A stretch of DNA of 20,292 nt, taken from IMG/VR virus record IMGVR_UViG_3300025311_000021, positions 1 to 20,292 of that record; one strand, given 5' to 3'. Position numbers and translations under genes: made by a program. Source of the stretch: a virus. Shown one piece after another: positions 1-8,958 of this stretch. The notes under the pieces were generated by a model, which saw only the letters and a program-made list of their open reading frames with translations, did no database searches and was not told the origin of the DNA. Each line of letters starts with the position of its first letter. The stretch's first letter is position 1.

Positions 1-105
1 CTCGCTCGCGAGCTGGGTGACTGGGCCGTCTGGCGGATCACCCAGGACAGCCGTACGGCGATCGCCTATCTCGAAGCACCGGGCTTCGCGTGGAGCAAGC
101 GGTGA
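1..105 (+). CDS. C-terminal end of an unidentified early protein (partial)
   Basis: An open frame enters from the left edge and ends at TGA 103-105, giving the last 34 residues. They are rich in Trp, Arg and Ala and end in WSKR. The next gene starts at GTG 102, sharing bases with this stop, so the two are translationally coupled. The fragment is too short to name. Its position upstream of gemA fits the small unnamed genes of the Mu early region. Confidence 0.55.
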   Translation, partial: LARELGDWAVWRITQDSRTAIAYLEAPGFAWSKR

Positions 106-338
106 AACGCCTGCGCACGCTGTCGATCGCGCGCCCAGAGGCGCTGAACCGGCGGCTCTGCCGGCAGGCGTGGGGCCAGCCGTATTGGCGCAGGTTGAGC
201 GTGCGCAAGCGCCTGGAATGGGAACTCCGGCAGATGCGGCGCATCGCGATCTTCCCGCTCGTGCGCGTGGAGCCGGAGGTGATCCTGCCGGGCGAGGCGC
301 CGCTCGACGAGACGTCGGGCCAGCCGGTGAGGCACTAA
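102..338 (+). CDS. Small basic hypothetical protein, early region
   Basis: A 78-residue, Arg-rich protein starting with MKRLRTLSIARPEAL. I chose GTG 102 because it overlaps the upstream stop (GTGA), the coupling style used throughout this window; an in-frame GTG at 90 is also possible. No membrane segment or known motif is visible. The middle is strongly basic and the last 25 residues are more acidic and Pro-rich. It is followed directly by a heptad repeat array that supplies the start of the next gene. Function unknown. Confidence 0.6.
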   Translation: MKRLRTLSIARPEALNRRLCRQAWGQPYWRRLSVRKRLEWELRQMRRIAIFPLVRVEPEVILPGEAPLDETSGQPVRH

Positions 339-340
339 GC

Positions 341-368
341 TGAGTGATGAGTGATGAGTGATGAGTGA
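341..368 (+). repeat. TGAGTGA heptad array overlapping a start codon
   Basis: Four perfect tandem copies of TGAGTGA. The array fills the gap after the stop at 338 and supplies the ATG at 361 of the next gene. It belongs to the GTRATGR heptad family also found at five other junctions in this window. Confidence 0.9.
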
Positions 369-639
369 TAAGCGCAAATTCCGCGGGCGGCGCCGGTGGA
401 CGGCGGCCGAGATCGCGCAGCTCAGGCGCCTTTATCCGGACGCGCTGACGGAAACGCTCGCGCGGCGCCTCAAGCGGTCGGTGTGCTCGGTCTACGGCAT
501 GGCGAACCTCATGGGTGTCAGGAAGAGCGAACGGTATTTTTCGAGTGATATTACTGGCCAACTCAAGAAGTTCTCGCGGGCCGGCGCCGCGATCGCTTCG
601 GCCCGCGAGCGGCTGATCAAGCAGGAGCTGCGGGCGTGA
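361..639 (+). CDS. SANT/Myb-like helix-turn-helix DNA-binding protein
   Basis: A 92-residue basic protein. Residues about 10-55 (WTAAEIAQLRRLYPDALTE and the following LARRLKRSVCSVYGMANLMG) have the spacing of a SANT/Myb or homeodomain-like three-helix fold, with the Trp at the start of helix 1 and a basic recognition helix. This kind of small DNA-binding protein recurs in the early region of Mu-like prophages. ATG 361 lies inside the heptad array; GTG 358 is an equally placed alternative adding one residue. No good Shine-Dalgarno is visible, so start and expression may depend on the repeat. Its target is unknown; early-gene regulation is an inference from position. Confidence 0.65.
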   Translation: MSDKRKFRGRRRWTAAEIAQLRRLYPDALTETLARRLKRSVCSVYGMANLMGVRKSERYFSSDITGQLKKFSRAGAAIASARERLIKQELRA

Positions 640-824
640 AATGGTGGGTATTCAACGAGGAGCGGCTCGTCACGGCGCTCGCCGCTTTCGTAGAGCGCCA
701 GAAGCGCGAGCATGAACTGGTACATAACGACACCACCGCCGACAAGCTGGGCGAGGCCATCCGCTCGTTTCTCGACTCGCCCGAAGCGCGCGAGCACAAG
801 CTGCGCGGAGACGATCAGCCGTGA
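636..824 (+). CDS. Small hypothetical early protein
   Basis: A 62-residue, charged and probably helical protein (starts MKWWVFNEERLVTAL). GTG 636 overlaps the TGA of the SANT-like gene at 637-639, indicating coupled translation. No signal peptide, membrane segment or catalytic motif is visible. It is the last gene before the 401-bp regulatory gap and probably closes the upstream operon. Function unknown. Confidence 0.6.
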   Translation: MKWWVFNEERLVTALAAFVERQKREHELVHNDTTADKLGEAIRSFLDSPEAREHKLRGDDQP

Positions 825-979
825 ATTCTTCTCAATACCCCCTTGAGGGGTACGCCGATAAAAAAACCCAAGCCGGGGGTGGGTCAAAACTCCGGCGGTC
901 CGCGATGGCAGCCGGCTCGTCCATGAGCCAGCCGGCCGGAACTCTCCCTCCTCCAGGGCGCCAGGCGCGGACACTTAAT
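825..979. other. Non-coding segment upstream of the c4-like locus
   Basis: No credible gene. It holds a short palindrome at 836-852 (TACCCC, 5-base loop, GGGGTA), a seven-A run at 860-866 and a GGCTC/GAGCC hairpin near 913-928. Nothing else is recognised before the promoter at 980. Confidence 0.5.
860..884 (-). terminator. Possible leftward Rho-independent terminator
   Basis: Read on the - strand this is ACCCA, a GC-rich loop, TGGGT and then seven T. The stem is only 5 bp and no leftward gene is seen, so it could be chance or could block transcription entering from the right. Confidence 0.25.
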
Positions 980-1009
980 TTGACACTGACGGGAAGACGG
1001 GGGTATTCT
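980..1009 (+). promoter_or_regulatory. Sigma70-like promoter of the c4-like/antirepressor operon
   Basis: A perfect -35 TTGACA (980-985), an 18-bp spacer and a -10 TATTCT (1004-1009, five of six consensus bases) put the start of transcription near A1016. This is the best consensus promoter in the window. It sits immediately upstream of the three-hairpin RNA, as expected for a constitutive promoter of a c4-type immunity RNA that reads on into the antirepressor genes. Confidence 0.7.
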
Positions 1010-1015
1010 GGCCGC

Positions 1016-1104
1016 ACTAGGCAATACAAGCGGCCGATCCGCTCCGTCAACGCGGATTTTTCACGCCCATCGTTCGGGCGTGATCGCCCGGCAACGGGCG
1101 GGTC
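1016..1104 (+). ncRNA. c4-like antisense RNA (P1 c4 family)
   Basis: Three hairpins follow the promoter: ATCCGC/GCGGAT (1037-1042 with 1052-1057) followed by a T run; TCACGCCC/GGGCGTGA (1061-1068 with 1076-1083), 8 bp; and CGCCCG/CGGGCG (1085-1090 with 1095-1100) closed by a GCAA tetraloop. The unpaired 5' arm carries CACTAG (1015-1020) and ATACAAG (1024-1030), exactly complementary to CTAGTG (1163-1168) and CTTGTAT (1152-1158) in the downstream leader. In phages P1 and P7, c4 RNA is cut from the same transcript as icd and ant and blocks their expression by antisense pairing. Hairpins, complementarity and downstream genes all fit that family. The ends are estimates; assignment to the Rfam C4 family is from memory, not a search. 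Confidence 0.7.
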
Positions 1105-1151
1105 GAGAGGCGCAAATACAACACCCGCAAGGGGAATAGCGCACGGCGCGT

Positions 1152-1220
1152 CTTGTATGCGTCTAGTGAGGCCTGCCCACCCCCTCATTTCGGTGGGCGA
1201 CTCTAGAAAATACAAGGAGG
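1152..1220 (+). promoter_or_regulatory. Structured leader with sequestered ribosome-binding site and antisense target
   Basis: The leader can fold as one long hairpin: CTTGTAT (1152-1158) with ATACAAG (1210-1216), TCTAG (1162-1166) with CTAGA (1203-1207), and a top stem GCCCACC (1175-1181) with GGTGGGC (1192-1198). The right arm runs into the Shine-Dalgarno AAGGAGG (1214-1220), five bases before ATG 1226. The left arm is the sequence complementary to the c4-like RNA 5' arm. The leader can therefore pair either with its own ribosome-binding-site arm or with the antisense RNA, but not both. Confidence 0.65.
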
Positions 1221-1225
1221 CATTT

Positions 1226-1504
1226 ATGCCTTGTCCCACCACGCCAGATCCGGGCGAACCAAACCTGTTTGACCGCTTTGAAAAGCTGCACGAAGCCCTG
1301 GAGAAGATGCGCGCCGAGATGGCGTGCGCCGAAAGTCTCGCGCTCCTGGAGACGATCAGCAACGACAACAAGTGGGTAACTTTGGCCCGCGACGATCTGG
1401 CAGAAGTCTTCGGCCAGTGGCGGGCGGCGCTCGCCGACGCGCGCGAGCTTTCCCTCGCCCTTCACGCGACGATCCATTCTCTCATCGGAGGCAAATCATG
1501 CTGA
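1226..1504 (+). CDS. Small ORF in icd position, upstream of the antirepressor
   Basis: A 92-residue acidic, mostly helical protein (starts MPCPTTPDPGEPNLF). ATG 1226 is fixed by a strong Shine-Dalgarno, AAGGAGG, five bases upstream. Its stop TGA 1502-1504 lies beyond the ATG 1498 of the next gene (7-bp overlap ATGCTGA), so antirepressor translation is probably coupled to it. In P1 the corresponding place is held by icd, a short ORF whose translation is needed for ant. No sequence likeness to Icd is claimed; the parallel is positional. No membrane segment or known domain is seen. Codons just after the start (CCTTGT, 1229-1234) can pair with ACAAGG of the Shine-Dalgarno region, another way to close the start. 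Confidence 0.7.
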   Translation: MPCPTTPDPGEPNLFDRFEKLHEALEKMRAEMACAESLALLETISNDNKWVTLARDDLAEVFGQWRAALADARELSLALHATIHSLIGGKSC

Positions 1505-2178
1505 ACACCCCCGCAACCATCGAGATCAAAAACCTGCCGGTAATGACCTACAAAGACCAGCCTGTGGCGACGAGCGCCATGCTCGCCCAGTACTACGGCA
1601 CCGATCCACGGCGCATTAGGCAGAACTTCAAAGGCAGGAAGGATCGCTTCATTATCGGGAGGCATTACTTTAAGCTGAGCGGCCCCGACTTGGCCGAGTT
1701 TCGGCGCGTCGTTAAAAGCGACGCGCCGTTTGCGCCGCCCGCGCTCGCGCGCGAGATCAACCTGTGGACCGAACGGGGCGCGGCGCGCCACGCCAAGATG
1801 CTCGACACCGAGCAGGCCTGGGCGGTGTGGGAAGCGATGGAGGACGATTACTTCCGCCGGGGCGGATCGGCCGCCCGCGGGGCGGACACGCCCGCCCCCG
1901 CCGCGCTCTTGCCGCCGCCCGCCTCCGCCAATCTCAAGCAACTCACCTGGGAGCAATGGGCGGCGATCCAGGAGGAGCGCGGCGATTTGTTCGCGTGCAA
2001 GGCGGAGTTGGTCGAGCTCAAGGCGCGGCTGAAACCCAAACACAGCTTCACCACCCCCGAGGAGCGCGCTCAGATTCACAGGTTGCGCGCCCAAGGTCTG
2101 TCATACGCCCAAATCGCCATCCGCACTAACCGCTCGGAACCCACCGTGGCTGCAATAGTGAAGAAGCACACACACTAG
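1498..2178 (+). CDS. ORF6N-domain phage antirepressor-like protein
   Basis: A 226-residue protein. Residues about 10-95 (IEIKNLPVMTYKDQPVATS, then LAQYYGTDPRRIRQNF and the F-I-x-G-x-H-Y-F-K-L segment) match the ORF6N domain of phage antirepressors of the KilA-N/ORF6N group. A Pro/Ala-rich linker follows, then a helical segment, and residues about 183-226 form a second helix-turn-helix (PEERAQIHRLRAQGLSYAQI) of the resolvase/transposase type. Antirepressors of this class inactivate a phage repressor or bind operators. The gene overlaps the preceding small ORF and sits behind a c4-like RNA, the setting of ant in P1. Its target, presumably this prophage's repressor, lies outside the window. Confidence 0.75.
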   Translation: MLNTPATIEIKNLPVMTYKDQPVATSAMLAQYYGTDPRRIRQNFKGRKDRFIIGRHYFKLSGPDLAEFRRVVKSDAPFAPPALAREINLWTERGAARHAKMLDTEQAWAVWEAMEDDYFRRGGSAARGADTPAPAALLPPPASANLKQLTWEQWAAIQEERGDLFACKAELVELKARLKPKHSFTTPEERAQIHRLRAQGLSYAQIAIRTNRSEPTVAAIVKKHTH

Positions 2179-2190
2179 TACGTACGCGAA

Positions 2191-2212
2191 ACCCGCCTTC
2201 GGGCGGGTCTGT
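2191..2212 (+). terminator. Terminator-like hairpin after the antirepressor gene
   Basis: ACCCGCC (2191-2197), a TTCG tetraloop and GGCGGGT (2202-2208) form a stable 7-bp stem 12 bases after the stop. The T tract is weak (CTGT), so termination may be partial. It separates the antirepressor operon from gemA. Confidence 0.55.
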
Positions 2213-2234
2213 CCGGCGTGGTGGCCGGGCACTG

Positions 2235-2720
2235 ATGAGCAGCCGAAATATGAGAGTTGATGCAGACCAACGACGTAAAGACTTGGCGGTGATTCACCTC
2301 GCCGCGAAGGCGCTGGGGTTGGACCGCGAAACCTATGAACAGATGTTGTTCACGCTCGCTCGCGTAAAAAGTGCGGCCGATCTGAACTTCGAAGGACGGC
2401 GCGCGGTAATAGAGCATCTGCGCGCGCGGGGGTTCAAGCCCTCACCCCGGCCCTCTCCCGGAGGGCGAGGGGGACACCCGGGCCGGCCGGCGAACATGGA
2501 CAACCCGGATCGCGGGCCGAGTCTGCGGAAGATCGAGGCGCTGCTGGCGGATGCCGGCCGGCCGTGGGCCTACGCCGACGGCATGGCGCGTAAAATGTTC
2601 CACGTGGAAAAAATCGCCTGGTGCGAGGCCGATCAACTGCATAGCATCATCGGCGCGCTGATGATCGACCAGAAGCGGCGGCGCGATCGCGCGGCGAAGG
2701 CGAACGCTGATGCACTGTAA
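2235..2720 (+). CDS. gemA: GemA-like regulatory protein (Mu gp16, DUF1018)
   Basis: A 161-residue protein. Residues about 12-67 (QRRKDLAVIHLAAKALGLDR, then YEQMLFTLARVKSAADL) are the first half of the GemA/DUF1018 fold, and residues about 95-150 (LRKIEALLADAGRPWAYADG, then MARKMFHVEKIAWCEADQL) are the second. Mu GemA affects host gene expression and replication and lies just upstream of mor, as here. The linker, about residues 70-90, is encoded by a CCCTCACCCC-type repeat (2439-2474) that keeps the frame open and inserts a Pro/Gly/Arg-rich stretch. ATG 2235 is the first start; ATG 2250 is in frame. The Shine-Dalgarno is weak. Confidence 0.85.
   Translation: MSSRNMRVDADQRRKDLAVIHLAAKALGLDRETYEQMLFTLARVKSAADLNFEGRRAVIEHLRARGFKPSPRPSPGGRGGHPGRPANMDNPDRGPSLRKIEALLADAGRPWAYADGMARKMFHVEKIAWCEADQLHSIIGALMIDQKRRRDRAAKANADAL
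2439..2474. repeat. CCCTCACCCC-type palindromic repeat inside gemA
   Basis: A CCCTCACCCCGGCCCTCTCC element followed by the reverse-complementary GGAGGGCGAGGGGG half. This is the common bacterial intergenic repeat with CCCTC arms. It lies in frame in the GemA inter-domain linker; a relative occurs at 19727-19823. Confidence 0.7.
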
Positions 2721-2973
2721 CCAACTCCGCGACCCGAATACCGGCGAGCTGCTCGCGATCGTCTGCGGCGACCGCAATCGCGTGCCGCTCTGCGCCTGCG
2801 GCAAGTCCTCGCGTTTTCAGTGCGACTGGAAAATCGCGCCCGGCAAGACGTGCGACAAGCATCTCTGCGGCGATCACGCCCAGGAGGTCGGCCCCGAGAA
2901 GCACTTGTGCCCGGGGCATCAAAAAGCCTATCGGCAATGGCAGGAACGCAAAACCGCAGCGGCGGGAGCATGA
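2710..2973 (+). CDS. Cys-rich, probably zinc-binding small phage protein
   Basis: An 87-residue protein with seven cysteines: one at residue 3, then C-G-D, C-A-C-G-K, C-D-W-K, C-D-K-H-L-C and C-P-G-H. The CACG..CDW..CDKHLC..H..CPGH pattern looks like a zinc ribbon or treble-clef fold, with His and Cys ligands in two clusters. ATG 2710 overlaps the end of gemA by 11 bp, and its stop overlaps the start of mor, making a gemA-Cys protein-mor unit. The role is unknown; binding nucleic acid or a host protein is only a guess. Confidence 0.65.
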   Translation: MHCNQLRDPNTGELLAIVCGDRNRVPLCACGKSSRFQCDWKIAPGKTCDKHLCGDHAQEVGPEKHLCPGHQKAYRQWQERKTAAAGA

Positions 2974-3308
2974 CGAGCCGGATGCACCCGATCCTGGAGG
3001 AACTGGCGGCCGTGGTGGCCGCCAGCCTCATGAAGCACCCGGGGCTCACGCGCGAGACCGCGGCAGCCGCGGCGGAACACATCACGGACGCGCTGCGCGC
3101 GACCTACGGCGGCGACAAGGGCATCTACATCCCGCGCACCAAGTACAGCGTCGCGTATATGCACGGCGAGATCGCACGGCGCTGGGACGGCACCAACACG
3201 CGGGAACTGTGCCGCGAACTCGGCATCAGCGATTCGCGTCTGCGCCAGCTCGCCCGCTCGGCGGATTACCCAAATCTACACCCAAAGTTTCCCGCGCTGC
3301 GCCCCTAG
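2970..3308 (+). CDS. mor: Mor/C-family middle/late transcription activator
   Basis: A 112-residue protein. Residues about 40-56 carry the family signature that ends in GGDKGIYIPR, and residues about 77-95 (NTRELCRELGISDSRLRQLA) form the C-terminal helix-turn-helix. Mu Mor (129 aa) and C bind as dimers upstream of weak -10 promoters and recruit RNA polymerase; this is near the usual size. ATG 2970 overlaps the previous TGA. It is the only Mor/C relative here, whereas Mu has two in tandem. The last 37 bp of the gene contain the shared motif proposed as its own late-promoter target (3272-3296). Confidence 0.85.
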   Translation: MTSRMHPILEELAAVVAASLMKHPGLTRETAAAAAEHITDALRATYGGDKGIYIPRTKYSVAYMHGEIARRWDGTNTRELCRELGISDSRLRQLARSADYPNLHPKFPALRP

Positions 3309-3311
3309 CAT
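3269..3311 (+). promoter_or_regulatory. Candidate Mor/C-dependent late promoter upstream of the amidase (Plys-like)
   Basis: AAATCTACACCCAAA (3272-3286), then TTTCCCG, with a -10-like TAGCAT at 3306-3311. CCCAAA is repeated 12 bp apart (3269-3274 and 3281-3286), which could be two half-sites on one face of the helix. The same 15-mer recurs at 15411-15425 upstream of the I gene, with the same offset to a -10-like hexamer. There is no -35 consensus, as in Mu C-activated promoters. Confidence 0.55.
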
Positions 3312-3317
3312 GGGCGC

Positions 3318-3941
3318 ATGGCGCAAGAATCGAGGATCGAGGATCGAGGATCGAGGATTGAGGCCCGGAAGCGGGCCGTCGATCTAATCGTCATCCATTG
3401 CAGCGCGACGCCCAACGGCCGGCGCACGACGGTCGAGGACATCGACCGCTGGCATGACGAGCGCGGTTTCGAGCGCGCTCCGGCTTGGCGGCGCCGCCAG
3501 AATCCCAACCTCGCGGCGATTGGCTATCACTTCGTGATCTATCTTGGCGGCGCGGTCGCCACCGGCCGGCATCTCGACGAGATCGGCGCGCACGTCTCGG
3601 GCAACAACCGCACCTCGATCGGCATCTGCATGATCGGCACCGACCAGTTCACGCCGCAGCAATGGGGCGCGCTCAAACACAACATCGACGGGCTCGCCAA
3701 GCTCTACGGTCGCGTGCTCGTGCCGCTGCCGGCCTCGGGGGTGATGGAACGGCGCGAGGCGGGACAGGTTTACCTCTGCGGCCACCGCGACCTTTCCCCG
3801 GATGAGGACAACGACGGCCTGGTCGAACGGTGGGAGTGGCTCAAAATCTGTCCCGGGTTTGACGTTCGCGCCTGGCTTGCGAGCGGCATGACGCCTCCGG
3901 CCGGCCACGTGCTCGAGATCCCAGACGAGGCGGCGGCGTGA
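3318..3941 (+). CDS. Endolysin: zinc N-acetylmuramoyl-L-alanine amidase (amidase_2/T7 lysozyme type)
   Basis: A 207-residue enzyme that cuts the bond between muramic acid and the peptide in peptidoglycan. Residues about 23-31 (LIVIHCSAT) hold zinc ligand H27; Y70-H71 matches the T7 lysozyme Tyr-His pair; H156 (GHRDLSPD) and C178 with K176 (KICPGF) match the other two ligands and the catalytic Lys. It occupies the place of Mu lys, directly after mor. It has no signal peptide, so release needs a holin. Residues 5-15 (SRIEDRGSRIE) are encoded by five ATCGAGG heptads rather than by family sequence; no other ATG or GTG start exists before the catalytic core. Confidence 0.9.
   Translation: MAQESRIEDRGSRIEARKRAVDLIVIHCSATPNGRRTTVEDIDRWHDERGFERAPAWRRRQNPNLAAIGYHFVIYLGGAVATGRHLDEIGAHVSGNNRTSIGICMIGTDQFTPQQWGALKHNIDGLAKLYGRVLVPLPASGVMERREAGQVYLCGHRDLSPDEDNDGLVERWEWLKICPGFDVRAWLASGMTPPAGHVLEIPDEAAA
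3329..3363 (+). repeat. ATCGAGG heptad array (five units) at the amidase N-terminus
   Basis: Four ATCGAGG units and a final ATTGAGG. Because 7 is not a multiple of 3, three units encode a heptapeptide (SRIEDRG). The same array with the same variant last unit is at 10972-10999 in the terminase gene. Confidence 0.9.
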
Positions 3942-4288
3942 TTCGTTATCTCGTCATCCTGCTCGTCATCGTGCTGGCGCTCGCCTGGGCGAGCATCGCC
4001 AGCGCCGCGGTCCAGCTCGACGGCCAGGGGTGCATGGAATACGCCATTTGGAGCCGGGACCTGGTTTGGGCCCGCGACGTCGGCGCCGATCGGGAGAAGG
4101 TCCGCGCGAGTCTCGCGGAGATGCGGGTGGAGACCGGAGCGGCAGGCGTCGCCGCGGGCGTCGTGTTCGCGCTCCTGCTGCGCGATCTCGACCGTCTATG
4201 GGACACCACCGCCAGCCGCCATGCGGTGATGCAGACGGTCGCCCGCGACTGCGTCGCGCGGCGCGGCCTATACGGTGATGAGATATGA
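3938..4288 (+). CDS. Small exported or membrane-anchored protein of the lysis cassette
   Basis: A 116-residue protein. Residues 1-23 are a strong hydrophobic segment (MIRYLVILLVIVLALAWASI) followed by ASA-A, a good signal peptidase I site, so it is secreted or anchored. The rest is helical with two Cys (one near residue 33, one near 107) that could form a disulfide in the periplasm, and a second apolar stretch near residues 69-80. GTG 3938 overlaps the amidase stop and the end overlaps the next ATG. It is in the right place for a spanin or antiholin-like protein, but no family match is recognised. Confidence 0.6.
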   Translation: MIRYLVILLVIVLALAWASIASAAVQLDGQGCMEYAIWSRDLVWARDVGADREKVRASLAEMRVETGAAGVAAGVVFALLLRDLDRLWDTTASRHAVMQTVARDCVARRGLYGDEI

Positions 4289-4470
4289 GCGGTTACAAAA
4301 CGCTCATCGGCGCGGCGGTGGCGCTCGCCGCCGAGCTCGCGCGGCTCGCCGGCGTGGACATCGGCGACCAGCAGGGGCTGGTGAATTCGATCCTGGTGAT
4401 CGGCGGCGTCGTGCTCGCGATCTACGGGCGGCTCGTCGCCAAAACCCGCTTCGACCAAACACGCATGTAG
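4285..4470 (+). CDS. Holin-like small membrane protein
   Basis: A 61-residue protein with two apolar helices (about residues 7-24 and 31-50, the second containing SILVIGGVVLAIYGR) and a short basic tail. Size, two membrane spans, positive C-terminus and position beside the amidase fit a class II or small phage holin, which would open the inner membrane to the endolysin. ATG 4285 overlaps the upstream TGA (ATGA). The call rests on topology and context only. Confidence 0.55.
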   Translation: MSGYKTLIGAAVALAAELARLAGVDIGDQQGLVNSILVIGGVVLAIYGRLVAKTRFDQTRM

Positions 4471-4480
4471 AGGGGGCATC

Positions 4481-4873
4481 ATGAAATCGTTCGCACACTA
4501 CGCATTGATCGCCCTCGCGCTGAGCCTCGCGGGCTGCGCTACCGGTATTGGCGAGAGGGTTCTGCTGGCCGGCACGACCGGCGCCGTGCGGTTCGATCCT
4601 GCGGATGTTGCCCGGGCAATCGAGATCGCAGTGAAGAAAAAAGACACCGACGGTGAAGCGTGCTATCGGGCAATCAGCAAGCATCTCGACCAAGAGTTTG
4701 TGCTCGAACCGATAGGCGTAGTCTCGCTCTTCGCCGCGGGTCGCGTCAGAATCATTGAAGCCGGCGCGGGCCTTGCGCGCGAGGTGAAGCGGGAGTGCGC
4801 GGTAATCGACTTTGATGTCACCCCGCTTTTGAGGGGCGCGGTCCGGGCGATCGGCGGAGCGCTGCTGCCGTGA
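4481..4873 (+). CDS. Phage-encoded lipoprotein
   Basis: A 130-residue protein with a clear lipoprotein signal: basic start, hydrophobic core and lipobox LAGC with C19 as the acylated residue. The mature part (about 112 residues) has two further Cys, K/D-rich segments and an apolar C-terminus. It is too long for a typical Rz1 outer-membrane spanin, and no Pro-rich region is present. A Shine-Dalgarno-like GAGGGGG precedes ATG 4481. It lies in the lysis cassette and overlaps the hydrolase gene, so it may act at the outer membrane in lysis or superinfection exclusion; neither is shown by sequence. Confidence 0.65.
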   Translation: MKSFAHYALIALALSLAGCATGIGERVLLAGTTGAVRFDPADVARAIEIAVKKKDTDGEACYRAISKHLDQEFVLEPIGVVSLFAAGRVRIIEAGAGLAREVKRECAVIDFDVTPLLRGAVRAIGGALLP

Positions 4874-5442
4874 GCATGGCACATCTGGTGCACGGCTACC
4901 GGGTAGCCGACGGGGGGAAGGCCACCAGCGACACCCTGATTCCGTACTTGGAAATGGCCGGCTTTCCTGTTCATCAGCACGACTACGGCTGGTTCGGACT
5001 CATGCAGGTTCGGCTGCTGAATGGCGGCGTGGCAGAGGATATCCTGCGCGGCACGAAGGTTGGCGACATCGGCGTCGGACACTCCAACGGCTGCGCGATT
5101 CTCGCCGATGCCGCCGACCGCGGCGCGCCGTTTGCGGGTCTGATATTCATCAATCCCGCGCTGGACACGGGCCGGGTGATCGAGCGGCGGGTGAAGTGGA
5201 TCCACGTCTATTACAACAAGGGCGATGTGCCAGTCTTGATCTCGGAATTGTTGGATTGGTTGCCGTGGAATTGGAACCACAAACACCCGTGGGGCGGGAT
5301 GGGCCGGACGGGATTTACCGGCCACGATCGGCGATATCGCAATGTCGACTGCGGCTCATACGGCGTAGCCGGGCACTCGGATTTTTTCCGGCGGATCGAG
5401 GTGATGGGGCCGGTGCTCATCCAAAACCTGAGGGCGGCATGA
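4870..5442 (+). CDS. Alpha/beta-hydrolase fold protein (putative esterase/lipase)
   Basis: A 190-residue protein. VHGY near residue 8 resembles the oxyanion-hole loop, GHSNG (S72) is the nucleophile elbow G-x-S-x-G, D119 (NKGDVPV) is a likely acid and H169 (GHSDFF) the likely catalytic His, all in the right order. It has no signal peptide. GTG 4870 overlaps the lipoprotein stop; ATG 4876 is an alternative. Placed beside endolysin, holin and lipoprotein genes, it may act on envelope lipids during lysis, or it may be a cargo gene. The substrate cannot be told from the sequence. Confidence 0.65.
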   Translation: MSMAHLVHGYRVADGGKATSDTLIPYLEMAGFPVHQHDYGWFGLMQVRLLNGGVAEDILRGTKVGDIGVGHSNGCAILADAADRGAPFAGLIFINPALDTGRVIERRVKWIHVYYNKGDVPVLISELLDWLPWNWNHKHPWGGMGRTGFTGHDRRYRNVDCGSYGVAGHSDFFRRIEVMGPVLIQNLRAA

Positions 5443-5561
5443 GCTGGCGGGACATGCGCTGGCAGGAGAAGGTCGTGGCGCCGCTGATTTTCGCGGCGGC
5501 GACGCTCGTCTACTACGGCCACGACGTCGTCGCCTGGCTGCTGGCGTTGATTGGGGTTTGA
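5439..5561 (+). CDS. 40-residue single-span membrane protein
   Basis: A charged N-terminus (MSWRDMRWQEKVV) precedes one long apolar helix (about residues 14-39, including APLIFAAATLVYY). ATG 5439 overlaps the hydrolase TGA, so it is translationally coupled. It may be an accessory holin or antiholin or just a small membrane protein; it is too short for family assignment. Confidence 0.5.
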   Translation: MSWRDMRWQEKVVAPLIFAAATLVYYGHDVVAWLLALIGV

Positions 5562-5580
5562 TTTAACGGGAGGAAACGCA

Positions 5581-5985
5581 ATGGCTAATGCACTGAGAGA
5601 CACCGGCCGCGAGGGATTCCTGGACGGCACGATCGATTGGGACACCAATACGATCAAGCATTTTCTCTACGACGAGGGCGCGGACGCGTTCATCGCCGGT
5701 GACGACAACCTCGACGACATCCTCGCCGGCGCGCGTATCGCGACCTCCGGCGCGTATGCGTCAAAGACCGTCACCGCCGGCGTGGCGGACGCGGCCGACG
5801 TCGTGCACACCGCGGTGTCGGGCGCGACGGTGGAGTCGATCGAGATCTACAAGGATTCCGGCGTGGAATCGACCTCGCGCTTGATCGCCAACATCGACAC
5901 CGCGACCGGGCTGCCGGTCACGCCCAACGGCGGAGACATAACGGTTGTTTTCGACGCAGGGGCAAACAGGATTTTCAAGCTGTGA
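5581..5985 (+). CDS. Conserved phage appendage-module protein (beta-rich, unknown function)
   Basis: A 134-residue protein starting MANALRDTGREGFLDGTIDW. The pattern of a short N-terminus, an I-D-W-x-T-x-T-I-K-x-x-L-Y-D segment, repeated T-V/T-A-G turns, an I-Y-K-D-S-G segment and a GLPVTPNGGDITVVFD-type ending is one I recognise as recurring in many phages beside tail-fibre genes, without a known function. ATG 5581 has a Shine-Dalgarno GGGAGGA. It starts the appendage module and is probably a virion component. Confidence 0.65.
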   Translation: MANALRDTGREGFLDGTIDWDTNTIKHFLYDEGADAFIAGDDNLDDILAGARIATSGAYASKTVTAGVADAADVVHTAVSGATVESIEIYKDSGVESTSRLIANIDTATGLPVTPNGGDITVVFDAGANRIFKL

Positions 5986-6467
5986 TGGACGGCAAGCTCA
6001 CCATCAACGTCAAGGCGGCCGGCACCCGCGTCGCGCTGAACCTCGACGATAAGGTCCGCGGCACGATGGACTGGTCGGCGGCGCAGCAGATCTCGCGCGA
6101 ACTGCGCGCGCTCGCGGCCGCAGCGGTGGGCATGGTGTTCTACAAGTTCACCGTCGACGGCCGCCCGGTCTACGTCGACTTCGAGCCGGGCCTGGCGCTG
6201 GCGCTCGCGAATGCGCTCTACCGATGCTCGCTCCAGGCCGAGGAGCAGGCGAAGGCCGAGCGCATCGCGCTTGATACCGCGATCCTCTACCGCGCGGGGG
6301 CGCCGCTCGGGCTCTCCAACGATCCGGCCATCCTCGACGAAGCGAAGAAAGAGGCGGCGTGGAATTCCGAACTGCGCCGCGCCATGCCCGGCGGCGTGAA
6401 ATCCGCCGAAGCGTTCGGCGTGCCGGCGGTGCGGCGCGGCCCGCCGCCCGGAACCACTCAACACTGA
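5985..6467 (+). CDS. Hypothetical protein of the appendage module
   Basis: A 160-residue protein. Residues about 1-70 look like a beta-rich segment followed by a helix (MDGKLTINVKAAGTRVALNL), the middle is helical and Ala/Glu-rich, and the C-terminus is Pro/Arg-rich and probably disordered. ATG 5985 overlaps the upstream TGA; GTG 5982 is possible. No motif recognised. Tight coupling to both neighbours suggests a structural or assembly role with them. Confidence 0.55.
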   Translation: MDGKLTINVKAAGTRVALNLDDKVRGTMDWSAAQQISRELRALAAAAVGMVFYKFTVDGRPVYVDFEPGLALALANALYRCSLQAEEQAKAERIALDTAILYRAGAPLGLSNDPAILDEAKKEAAWNSELRRAMPGGVKSAEAFGVPAVRRGPPPGTTQH

Positions 6468-6477
6468 AAGGACCCCC

Positions 6478-6684
6478 ATGAAAACCTATGACGCCATGAC
6501 GCTTTCGGAACTGGACGACGCGATCGCGCAGAGCAACGCGGTCGTGGACAAGATCAAACAGGATCTGCGCGACATGCAGCGCGCGCGCGACGCGCAGCTC
6601 GCCGCCGAGCTTACCGCGAAGCGCGTGGCATCGATGTCGCCCGCCGAACGCGAGGCGATGGCGAAGGCGCTCGCGGCGAGCTAA
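6478..6684 (+). CDS. Small coiled-coil hypothetical protein
   Basis: A 68-residue protein. Residues about 8-50 have heptad-like spacing of Leu, Ile and Val among charged residues (LSELDDAIAQSNAVVDKIKQ), predicting a coiled coil; the C-terminus MSPAEREAMAKAL is a second short helix. A Shine-Dalgarno AAAGGA lies before ATG 6478. Function unknown; a chaperone or linker for the appendage genes is possible. Confidence 0.55.
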   Translation: MKTYDAMTLSELDDAIAQSNAVVDKIKQDLRDMQRARDAQLAAELTAKRVASMSPAEREAMAKALAAS

Positions 6685-6694
6685 AGGATGGCCG

Positions 6695-6931
6695 ATGAGG
6701 CTGCATCGCAAGGTGTGGTTGTGGTGGGGGCACTGGTGGGCGGTGCAGTATCTCGACACGCGCGACGAGGTGTCGCTCGGCGTGAGGTTTAACTGGCGCC
6801 GGCCGCTGTTTGATCTTTACCTCGGCCCGCTGACGGTCGCGATCGGACGCTGTCCGGAACTGACGGCCCGCGACGAAGCGCAAAGCCACTCCTGCCGCGG
6901 GTTCATCATCACCGATCGGGCGGCGCTGTAG
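6695..6931 (+). CDS. Trp-rich hypothetical protein
   Basis: A 78-residue protein, Trp- and aromatic-rich at the start (MRLHRKVWLWWGHWWAVQYL) with predicted beta strands up to a LYLGPLTVAIGR-type segment, then a short polar tail with two Cys. ATG 6695 has an upstream AAGGA. Its stop abuts the start of the large repeat protein. Similar short proteins occur next to fibre genes in other phages, but the function is not known. Confidence 0.5.
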   Translation: MRLHRKVWLWWGHWWAVQYLDTRDEVSLGVRFNWRRPLFDLYLGPLTVAIGRCPELTARDEAQSHSCRGFIITDRAAL

Positions 6932-8647
6932 ATGGCAACCGCGACCAAAGCAACGCGCGGCGCAGTCGGGACGAACGACTGGACGACGCCAGAAAATGCG
7001 AGCGCTGACGATGGCGTGAACTACGCCACCTGTGCCCCAGGGAAAAACGCGTCGGTCATCGGCGATTGGGATTTTGCCGCGTTCACCGACGGCGAGATCC
7101 CGGTCGGCTCGCTCATCAACTCGGTCATCATCCGCTCGAACTACAAAGTCTCCACGACGCTCTCGATCGCGTCGCTGGGCGTGCAGGCGGGCAACAACGG
7201 CGCATTCGACGCCGAGGAAACGCACGCCACCGAGCCGACCACCGACACCGATTTTAATGTCACCTTCAATGCCGAGCCGTCGATCACCGACCTGAAAACG
7301 GCCGGGCGCCTGGTCGCCCGGATCCGCGGGATTCGCGGCAACGACATCGACGCGGTCACCCTCAGCCTCGATTATGTCGAGCTCCGCGTCGATTATGCTC
7401 CGGGCCAGACCGTATCCGACGCCGGCAACATCGCGAGCGGAGAAGCCTTCGGCGCCGATCAGGCGAACCTCACGCTGCCGGCGGTGGGCGGGCTCGCGAG
7501 CGAGGAGGCGTTCGGCGCGAGCCAGCTCAATCTCACGCTCTCCGGCGCCGGTGCGATCGCGACCGAGGAAGCGTTCGGCGCGGCCACCATCAGCGCCGGC
7601 ACGCCGCAGACGGTGAGCGAGGCGGGCGCGATCGCGAGCGCCGAGGCGTTCGGCGCCGACCAGCTCAATCTCACGCTCTCCGGCGCCGGCGCGATCGACA
7701 CCGCCGAGGCCTTCGGCGCGGCCACCGTCACGCCGGGCGGCGTCACCGTCACCGCCTCGGCCATTGACAGCGCCGAGGCTTTCGGCTCGGACCAGATCAA
7801 TCTCACCCTGCCGGCGGTGGGCGGGCTCGTGAGCGAGGAGGTGTTCGGCGCCGATCAGCTTAATCTCACGCTCTCCGGCGCCGGTGCGATCGCGACCGCG
7901 GAGGCGTTCGGTGCGGCGAGCGTGGACCTGGGGCCGATCACCCTTTCGCCGACGGCGATCGCGAGCGAGGAAGCGTTCGGCGATACGACCGTCACGCCGG
8001 GCGGGGTCACCGTCACGGCATCCGCAATCGACAGCGCCGAAGCTTTCGGCACCGACCAGGTGAACCTCGCGCTCTCCGGCGCCGGCGCCATCGCGACGGC
8101 GGAAGCGTTCGGGGCGGACACCGTCACGCCCGGCGGCGTCACCGTGACCGCCTCGGGCATCGCGAGCGCCGAAACATTCGGCAGCGACCGGCTCGATTTG
8201 ACGCTGCCGGCCGTGGGCGACATCGCGAGCGCCGAGGCCTTCGGCGCCGATCAGGTGAACCTCGCGCTGCAGGCCGCGGGCGCGATCGCCAGCGCGGAAG
8301 CGTTCGGAGCTGACCAGCTCAACTTGACGCTGCCCGCCGTGGGCGACATCGCCAGCGGCGAAGCGTTCGGCGCAGACACCGTCACGCCCGGCGGCGTCAC
8401 CGTCACCGCGTCCGGCATCGCGAGCGCTGAGGCGTTCGGCGCCGACCAGCTCAACCTGACGATCACCGGCGCCGGCGCGATCGCGAGCACAGAGGCCTTC
8501 GGCACGGCGCTGGCGCAGCTCGGCCTGGTGAGCGATCCGCGCTACATCGCGCCGGACGAGGCGCGCGCATTTACGGCGGCCGACCGGCCGCGCTTGTTCA
8601 CGGCCGAAGATCCCGGCCGCACATTCACCGCACCGGAACCCCGATGA
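6932..8647 (+). CDS. Large repeat-containing tail appendage or adhesin-like protein
   Basis: A 571-residue protein. Residues 1-155 look like a beta-sandwich head (DWTTPENASADDGVNYAT through YVELRVDY), a type common at the start of phage minor tail proteins. Residues about 162-532 hold 17 copies of an E-A-F-G-centred repeat of 21-23 residues in two alternating forms, one ending DQLNLTLPAVG and one ending TVTPGGVTVTAS. Residues about 536-571 carry short F-T-A repeats (ARAFTA, RLFTA, RTFTA). The regular beta-rich stalk suggests a fibre or spike on the virion. It overlaps the adaptor gene. No catalytic motif is visible. A fibre role is inferred from context. Confidence 0.65.
   Translation: MATATKATRGAVGTNDWTTPENASADDGVNYATCAPGKNASVIGDWDFAAFTDGEIPVGSLINSVIIRSNYKVSTTLSIASLGVQAGNNGAFDAEETHATEPTTDTDFNVTFNAEPSITDLKTAGRLVARIRGIRGNDIDAVTLSLDYVELRVDYAPGQTVSDAGNIASGEAFGADQANLTLPAVGGLASEEAFGASQLNLTLSGAGAIATEEAFGAATISAGTPQTVSEAGAIASAEAFGADQLNLTLSGAGAIDTAEAFGAATVTPGGVTVTASAIDSAEAFGSDQINLTLPAVGGLVSEEVFGADQLNLTLSGAGAIATAEAFGAASVDLGPITLSPTAIASEEAFGDTTVTPGGVTVTASAIDSAEAFGTDQVNLALSGAGAIATAEAFGADTVTPGGVTVTASGIASAETFGSDRLDLTLPAVGDIASAEAFGADQVNLALQAAGAIASAEAFGADQLNLTLPAVGDIASGEAFGADTVTPGGVTVTASGIASAEAFGADQLNLTITGAGAIASTEAFGTALAQLGLVSDPRYIAPDEARAFTAADRPRLFTAEDPGRTFTAPEPR
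7417..8527 (+). repeat. Seventeen degenerate 63-69-bp coding repeats (EAFG motif)
   Basis: The repeat is conserved at DNA as well as protein level: GAGGCGTTCGGCGCC-like cores recur every 63-69 bp, with near-identical CTCAATCTCACGCTCTCCGG and GTCACGCCGGGCGGCGTCAC tracts. Copy number could change easily by recombination. Confidence 0.85.
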
Positions 8648-8958
8648 GCATCGAATCCAAAGACCCCGCCGAGATCATCACGGTGACTTTCCCCTACGCC
8701 AAGGAAATCGGCGGCGCGACGATCCTGAACGAGGCGGATCCGGGCGCGAACCCGGACATCACCGTTGAGATCACCAACGGCACGGACTCGGGCGCGGCGC
8801 AGATGCTCAATGGCGCCCTGCAAATATCGACCTCGAATGTGCTGCAGAGCGTGAAGACCGGCCTGGACGGGGTCGATTACAAGCTGCGCTGCGAAGCGCC
8901 GTTGTCCGACGGGCGAAAACTGGTGCGGGTGCTGCCGCTGCCGGTGCGGCGTAAGTAG
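8644..8958 (+). CDS. Probable phage fibre-tail adaptor protein
   Basis: A 104-residue protein beginning MSIESKDPAEIITVTFPYAK and ending with the VLQSVKTGLDGVDYKLRCEA-type segment and a VRVLPLPVRR end. This pattern (K/D-P-x-E-x-I-x-V-T-F start, V-D-x-x-D-Y-x-L-R-C core) is that of small adaptor proteins next to fibre genes in many phages (Pam3 gp18-like, from memory). ATG 8644 overlaps the repeat protein stop by 4 bp. It would join the appendage to the tail or baseplate. Confidence 0.6.
   Translation: MSIESKDPAEIITVTFPYAKEIGGATILNEADPGANPDITVEITNGTDSGAAQMLNGALQISTSNVLQSVKTGLDGVDYKLRCEAPLSDGRKLVRVLPLPVRRK

Follow-up and report, generated by a model that had tools for sequence, protein, structure and literature searches.

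A probable C4-type antisense RNA switch on an sRNA-Xcc1 (RF02221) scaffold ahead of the antirepressor operon of a Mu-like phage

The layouts closest to the locus described here are the c4-icd-ant operon of phages P1 and P7, the isrK-orf45-anrP locus of Gifsy-1 and the loci of sRNA-Xcc1 (RF02221). The c4-a1b1 motif, which we compare below together with IsrK, reportedly goes back to Weinberg in 2010. The annotated P1 record gives a promoter (48195-48223), the sites a1 (48255) and b1 (48269), the C4 RNA (48343-48419), the sites a2 (48423) and b2 (48452), and then icd (48470-48691) and ant1 (from 48688). IsrK is a short RNA of Gifsy-1 that activates anrP in trans via a small upstream ORF (PMC4825925). 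When sRNA-Xcc1 was described, in 2010, it had no confirmed target; it was mapped in Xanthomonas as an RNA of 88 nt by RACE and of about 100 nt on Northern blots (PMC2996969). It was later interpreted as a virulence RNA (PMC2996969, PMC12189769) and found in RNA-seq of Xylella (PMC12189769). Of the papers searched, one (PMC12189769) names C4 antisense RNA as well as sRNA-Xcc1, in an annotation table where they are not equated.

The window analyzed here, the whole 20,292-bp stretch of a virus record, encodes Mu-type GemA, Mor and portal proteins (PF06252, PF08765, PF06074), and a sibling contig (L303) carries Phage_Mu_Gam further left (upstream), in agreement with the Mu-like prophage proposed in an earlier, sequence-only reading of this DNA. 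Two viral contigs (L061 and L087) share this setting, with the same RNA class and with portal/MuF-like genes homologous to those of the window. All elements of the locus lie on the plus strand. The putative sigma-70-type promoter (980-1009; TTGACA 980-985, TATTCT 1004-1009, spacer 18), already recognized as a consensus promoter in that reading, is the sole promoter-like site in 800-2400, where 0.3 would be expected. At the predicted transcript start lies a decoy copy of the target, composed of b1 (CACTAG, 1015-1020) and a1 (ATACAAG, 1024-1030). The three hairpins noted earlier are present at 1037-1057, 1062-1082 and 1085-1100; the first is terminator-like and is followed by TTTTT (1037-1061), and termination there would yield a decoy RNA of about 47 nt.

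Downstream of these hairpins is a predicted antisense RNA domain (1097-1185), assigned to the sRNA-Xcc1 class on the RF02221 match, a covariance model built from other loci, and its stems. It has a 9-bp closing stem (1096-1104/1170-1178), a GCGC stem (1110-1113/1139-1142), a GCAA-capped (GNRA) hairpin (1124-1133) and, as its last hairpin, the antisense hairpin (1145-1163). The antisense arm (1152-1168) consists of a' (CTTGTAT, 1152-1158), which lies in the loop of this hairpin as an anti-Shine-Dalgarno sequence, and b' (1162-1168), a single strand 3' of the hairpin that includes CTAGTG (1163-1168). The two complementary blocks reported before, CACTAG with CTAGTG and ATACAAG with CTTGTAT, are thus in place, and the segment 1152-1168 is complementary to both of its flanks, 1015-1030 and 1203-1216. 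The second flank, absent from the sequence-only reading, is the putative target site, a second copy of the 5' arm made up of b2 (CTAGA, 1203-1207) and a2 (ATACAAG, 1210-1216, the third member of the triple match); it overlaps the Shine-Dalgarno sequence AAGGAGG (1214-1220) of a 92-aa ORF (1226-1504) in the position of icd or orf45. The end of this ORF overlaps the start of a gene for a 226-aa ORF6N and HTH protein of antirepressor type (1498-2178), as had been noted, and a type II hammerhead ribozyme (2184-2248; RF02276, 76.5 bits, E 1e-14) stands between the antirepressor gene and gemA as the right-hand part of the module (973-2234).

The window and P1/P7 c4-icd-ant have the same order of elements at similar spacing. 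In both the window and P1 there is a three-part complementarity of a1/b1, a'/b' and a2/b2, with a2/b2 at the Shine-Dalgarno sequence in the icd position; in both RNAs the hairpin loop matches the site proximal to the Shine-Dalgarno sequence and the strand after the hairpin matches the upstream site, and both have a closing stem and a terminator-like hairpin after a1/b1, which in P1 follows b1 as a comparable CGG..CCGCA..TGCGGTATTTTT. The small ORF overlapping the start of the antirepressor gene is likewise a trait of the P1-type icd-ant arrangement. The window differs from P1 in its Mu-like genome, in having ORF6N in place of P1 Ant, and in an RNA core (AATACAA..CCCG(GNRA)GGG..AAT) that has no C4 covariance match. 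Because of this difference in core, we regard the locus as a putative C4-type switch on an sRNA-Xcc1 scaffold, and not as a member of RF01695.

An Rfam scan of 700-1700 returned a full-length RF02221 match (1-87 of 87) at 1097-1185, with a score of 47.1 bits that is below the gathering score of 53 bits and an E-value of 2.4e-9 over the whole record. A C4 (RF01695) match was absent from 700-1700, even at E-values up to 10; since C4 matches do turn up in another contig (L031), the C4 search works. The covariance match is thus to sRNA-Xcc1, below gathering, and not to C4, the family against which the sequence-only reading had proposed to search 1000-1110. The stretch 1000-1110, which that reading took for the antisense RNA, contains the decoy arm (a1/b1) and then the intrinsic terminator; those boundaries gave no match to C4 or any other family, and the structured domain lies downstream. 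Nor was the proposal that GGCC beyond the target and upstream of the promoter is a trace of arm duplication supported: GGCC at 1170-1173 is more simply explained as belonging to the 3' side of the closing stem, and the upstream GGCC is at or before the predicted transcription start. A covariance model (R1) made from 43 loci that do not include the window gives it a score of 52.8 bits (E 3e-14). This value is partly circular, in that the window conforms to the core pattern by which those loci had been selected; most of the source loci that were scanned are above the RF02221 gathering score. The window domain has the conserved core and stems of bona fide sRNA-Xcc1 members, and it resembles them in fold, in length (88-89 nt) and in the order of decoy, terminator and sRNA. 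It is unlike Xanthomonas sRNA-Xcc1 in scoring below gathering and in its predicted target, an antirepressor operon and not symE or XAC0095.

From the window alone, the complementarity is weak and merely suggestive evidence, and not beyond chance at a strict level: dinucleotide shuffling of 980-1228 produced an equally good two-block match in 205 of 5000 trials (4%), and a triple of 7-mer, complement and 7-mer in 74 of 5000 (1.5%). Covariation over many lineages is the main evidence for the putative switch. A core pattern search gave at least 120 viral and at least 119 genome stretches, and among the matches listed the antisense loop sequence differs freely from locus to locus. Scans for the longest single match and whole-region RNAduplex scans were replaced by two-block and triple tests, because they were too noisy per locus. 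Of 95 dereplicated viral loci among the matches listed, 72 have the same complement of the loop arm (6-mer or longer) in both leader and downstream site; in the cross-locus control for a shared 6-mer, the frequency was 12% of 8474 pairs, and the genome loci among the matches listed repeat the viral result. Over the 193 sRNA-Xcc1-type loci in the matches listed, the decoy covaries with its own antisense arm in 83% (cross-locus control, 8%) and the downstream Shine-Dalgarno copy in 55% (control, 4%); both partners are found in 94 loci, the decoy alone in 66, the target alone in 12 and neither in 21. The 66 loci that keep decoy pairing fall under the cut-off at the next Shine-Dalgarno sequence, so control of a cis target is not universal. 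Compensating changes, the outcome that the sequence-only reading had proposed to look for among homologous leaders, are thus seen across the family in decoy and Shine-Dalgarno copies alike, and its P1 c4-icd-ant layout gains support both from this covariation and from the element-by-element match to annotated P1.

The 125 complete loci among the matches listed have 81 different loop k-mers; 118 of them have a closing stem of at least 8 bp, the 5' strand of which takes 58 different sequences across the set, and 82 have a hairpin with a T-run between a1 and the core. Stems were counted by script, after RNAalifold on a MAFFT alignment had recovered only 8 base pairs, because the stems were misaligned. 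Promoters were found within 60 nt 5' of a1 at 62 of 124 listed loci, compared with 3 of 243 control stretches. RNAduplex comparisons of own with shuffled partners gave z = -17.9 for the downstream and -16.5 for the upstream partner, and the decoy was the stronger partner in 106 of 124 listed loci. In six viral contigs (L002, L005, L017, L021, L023 and L112) the core is kept and the decoy is absent; a possible CCGCA(T) target stands immediately 5' of an ATG in these contigs, and a TTGAC-type site resembling a promoter separates it from the RNA. In one prophage (L031, 2422-3753), the isrK, C4 and sRNA-Xcc1 families occur in tandem ahead of two ORF6N-type genes.

Taken as a whole, the locus very probably controls its antirepressor operon by a C4-type antisense RNA switch on an sRNA-Xcc1 (RF02221) scaffold; the interpretation of the sequence-only reading, c4-type control of an icd/ant-style operon, is thus largely right, although the RNA was named wrongly. 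Comparison among loci demonstrates the three co-varying elements, the predicted RNA fold, the putative promoter and terminator, and the gene order. We infer from these that RNA processing, repression in trans, decoy action and translational coupling would operate as follows. Transcription from the single promoter would produce an RNA starting with the decoy copy of the target (b1-a1), and the majority of transcripts would stop at the terminator behind it, releasing the short decoy RNA. Read-through would add the structured RNA of about 89 nt, with its a'/b' arm complementary to the decoy and to b2-a2. As b2-a2 covers the Shine-Dalgarno sequence of the 92-aa ORF, which would be translationally coupled to the ORF6N antirepressor, antisense RNA freed from the decoy would cover b2-a2 and turn the operon off; with a1/b1 on the antisense arm, either within the same RNA or as a separate decoy, the operon would be translatable. 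In line with this, the predicted fold of the full leader places a1/b1 on a'/b' and keeps the Shine-Dalgarno sequence out of that pairing, and the predicted duplex energies in the window are -28.5 kcal/mol for the decoy compared with -17.8 kcal/mol for the target.

The order of promoter, short RNA, terminator, small ORF and antirepressor is also that of Gifsy-1, and both IsrK (RF01394) and the c4-a1b1 motif resemble the window in a short terminated decoy RNA followed by a small ORF and an antirepressor. The short terminated decoy of the window (1015 to about 1062) could accordingly turn the antirepressor on in trans, in the manner of isrK-orf45-anrP, where IsrK in trans activates anrP translation about 140-fold (PMC4825925); the isrK and C4 families adjoining an sRNA-Xcc1 locus in L031 are consistent with this. 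We consider it unlikely as the operative reading; there is no isrK Rfam match in the window. Trans activation has been shown for IsrK only (PMC4825925). The IsrK-type reading is not exclusive of the C4-type switch and can hold together with it, since the decoy is one half of that switch.

A purely cis-acting leader, in which one mRNA would toggle between a decoy-paired and a Shine-Dalgarno-paired fold without a free antisense RNA, is improbable. Every element does lie on one transcript, the pairing of decoy and antisense arm in the predicted leader fold is one in cis, and the predicted gain for the intact sRNA binding the target in trans is small (-2.4 kcal/mol). However, the closed 9-bp stem argues for a self-contained domain and the terminator separating decoy from domain suggests separate RNAs. 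In addition, family members accumulate as discrete RNAs of about 88 nt (PMC2996969; Xylella RNA-seq, PMC12189769), and in P1, where the layout is the same, the annotation gives C4 as an RNA of its own, 77 nt long.

Two sibling contigs bear on whether the C4-type switch is maintained in this phage. L304, which is 99.97% identical to window 2474-8717, lacks the whole 1.26-kb module (window 973-2234) and has 25 bp in its place (L304 612-638), passing from the equivalent of 972 to the gemA start. The promoter, the switch, the two ORFs and the greater part of the hammerhead were therefore gained or lost as a unit, and the predicted antirepressor module behaves like a gain/loss cassette. A search of GemA relatives found the module-free sibling and no second copy of the RNA. 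L303 is 99.6% identical over window 1-4234 and has an 11-bp deletion (window ~1454-1464) that brings the 92-aa ORF and ORF6N into one continuous frame; a similar orf45-anrP fusion has been reported in S. dysenteriae (PMC4825925). The module being dispensable, the deletion in the small ORF of L303 and the sub-gathering RF02221 score would all fit a degenerate relic, with elements inherited and control lost, but this is very improbable, given that the three elements, promoter, terminator, closing stem and both ORFs are all intact in the window and that the L303 deletion leaves the frame open, fusing the small ORF to ORF6N instead of breaking it. Chance complementarity in a GC-rich leader, for which the shuffles (4% and 1.5%) leave some room on the window alone, is scarcely credible once the independent RF02221 match and the covariation over about 190 loci are considered, and is rejected at the family level by the cross-locus controls.

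The genes downstream of sRNA-Xcc1-type loci are mostly predicted antirepressors. Among 66 downstream proteins the commonest Pfam domains were Bro-N (21), Rha (9), P22_AR_C (9), KilA-N (8), P22_AR_N (5), AntA (5) and ORF6N (5), and PHROG assigns the downstream proteins as anti-repressors; annotated cases include AntB of Stx phage P27, Ant of Aaphi23, the antirepressor of Bordetella phage IFTN1 and a KilA-N protein of Acinetobacter phage 4316. The antirepressor of the window matches PF10543 (ORF6N; E 1.3e-16), HTH_38 and PHROG 1760 (anti-repressor; E 4.6e-38), and on the latter family assignment its product would act against the phage's own repressor, a gene for which does not lie within the 20,292-bp fragment. 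Relatives of this ORF6N protein are few (L122, identical; L123-L125, at 40-50%), and none of L123-L125 has an RF02221 match. The 92-aa ORF has no Pfam or PHROG match and weakly resembles XAC0095 at a sub-threshold level (E 0.028).

The wider result, and a more interesting one than the single locus, is that sRNA-Xcc1 itself, on the comparison of many relatives, is a C4-type class, built like the C4 RNA of P1. RF02221 copies number 3-13 per genome in the six Xanthomonas genomes tested. The top-scoring copy (L253, from an X. hortorum genome) has the whole layout, at 1200-1680, ahead of a SymE toxin gene, with CTCGAAG in the decoy and again (the a2 copy) at the symE Shine-Dalgarno sequence, and CTTCGAG in the loop. 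An occurrence of sRNA-Xcc1 upstream of symE in integrons has been described, with the mechanism unexplained (PMC12444791), and L253 is presumably such an integron cassette. Part of L253 1200-1680 has 82% identity over 139 bp to plasmid DNA of Pseudomonas aeruginosa whose annotation is a BRO family protein. In most of the other Xanthomonas copies examined, which stand ahead of XAC0095 or SymE ORFs, the decoy match is retained (14-18 nt) and a cis target is absent from the next 700 nt; within the same 700 nt of copies without a cis a2 no further antisense target rose above controls. Xanthomonadaceae copies with a covarying decoy and no target at the next Shine-Dalgarno sequence (L132, L142, L156, L174, L186, L189, L202, L203 and L254-L272) are often followed by an ORF of the XAC0095 family, and in several of them SymE lies farther along.

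Tentatively, and with somewhat less than even confidence, we suggest that RF02221/sRNA-Xcc1 is half of a portable translation switch that combines a decoy with an antisense RNA and whose loops are hypervariable and private to each locus. Phages would use this switch for antirepressors, and in Xanthomonas integrons and chromosomes it stands in front of symE and XAC0095 genes; where a cis target is absent, the RNA may work in trans, either on other loci or as a captured immunity RNA directed at incoming phages. sRNA-Xcc1 would thereby gain a base-level prediction, namely that its loop pairs with the upstream decoy and, in complete loci, with the Shine-Dalgarno sequence of the next gene. C4-type antirepressor control would be extended past the Rfam C4 model to Mu-like phages and, on the core match alone and among the matches listed, to gamma-, beta- and alphaproteobacterial genomes and a few other MAGs.

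Hammerheads flanking prophage genes have been reported before (Perreault 2011). Type II hammerheads were seen in the early regions of Mu-like phages at window 2184-2248, L303 711-775, L128 2999-3066 and L129 2999-3063, and the phages bearing them include Burkholderia phage KS10 and Chromohalobacter phage YPCBV-1. Sibling contig L303 has a second copy. L303 1-80 is 84% similar to window 1428-1507 (the end of the small ORF and the start of the antirepressor); this stretch is a second site farther to the left in that genome, preceding another gene that a hammerhead follows.
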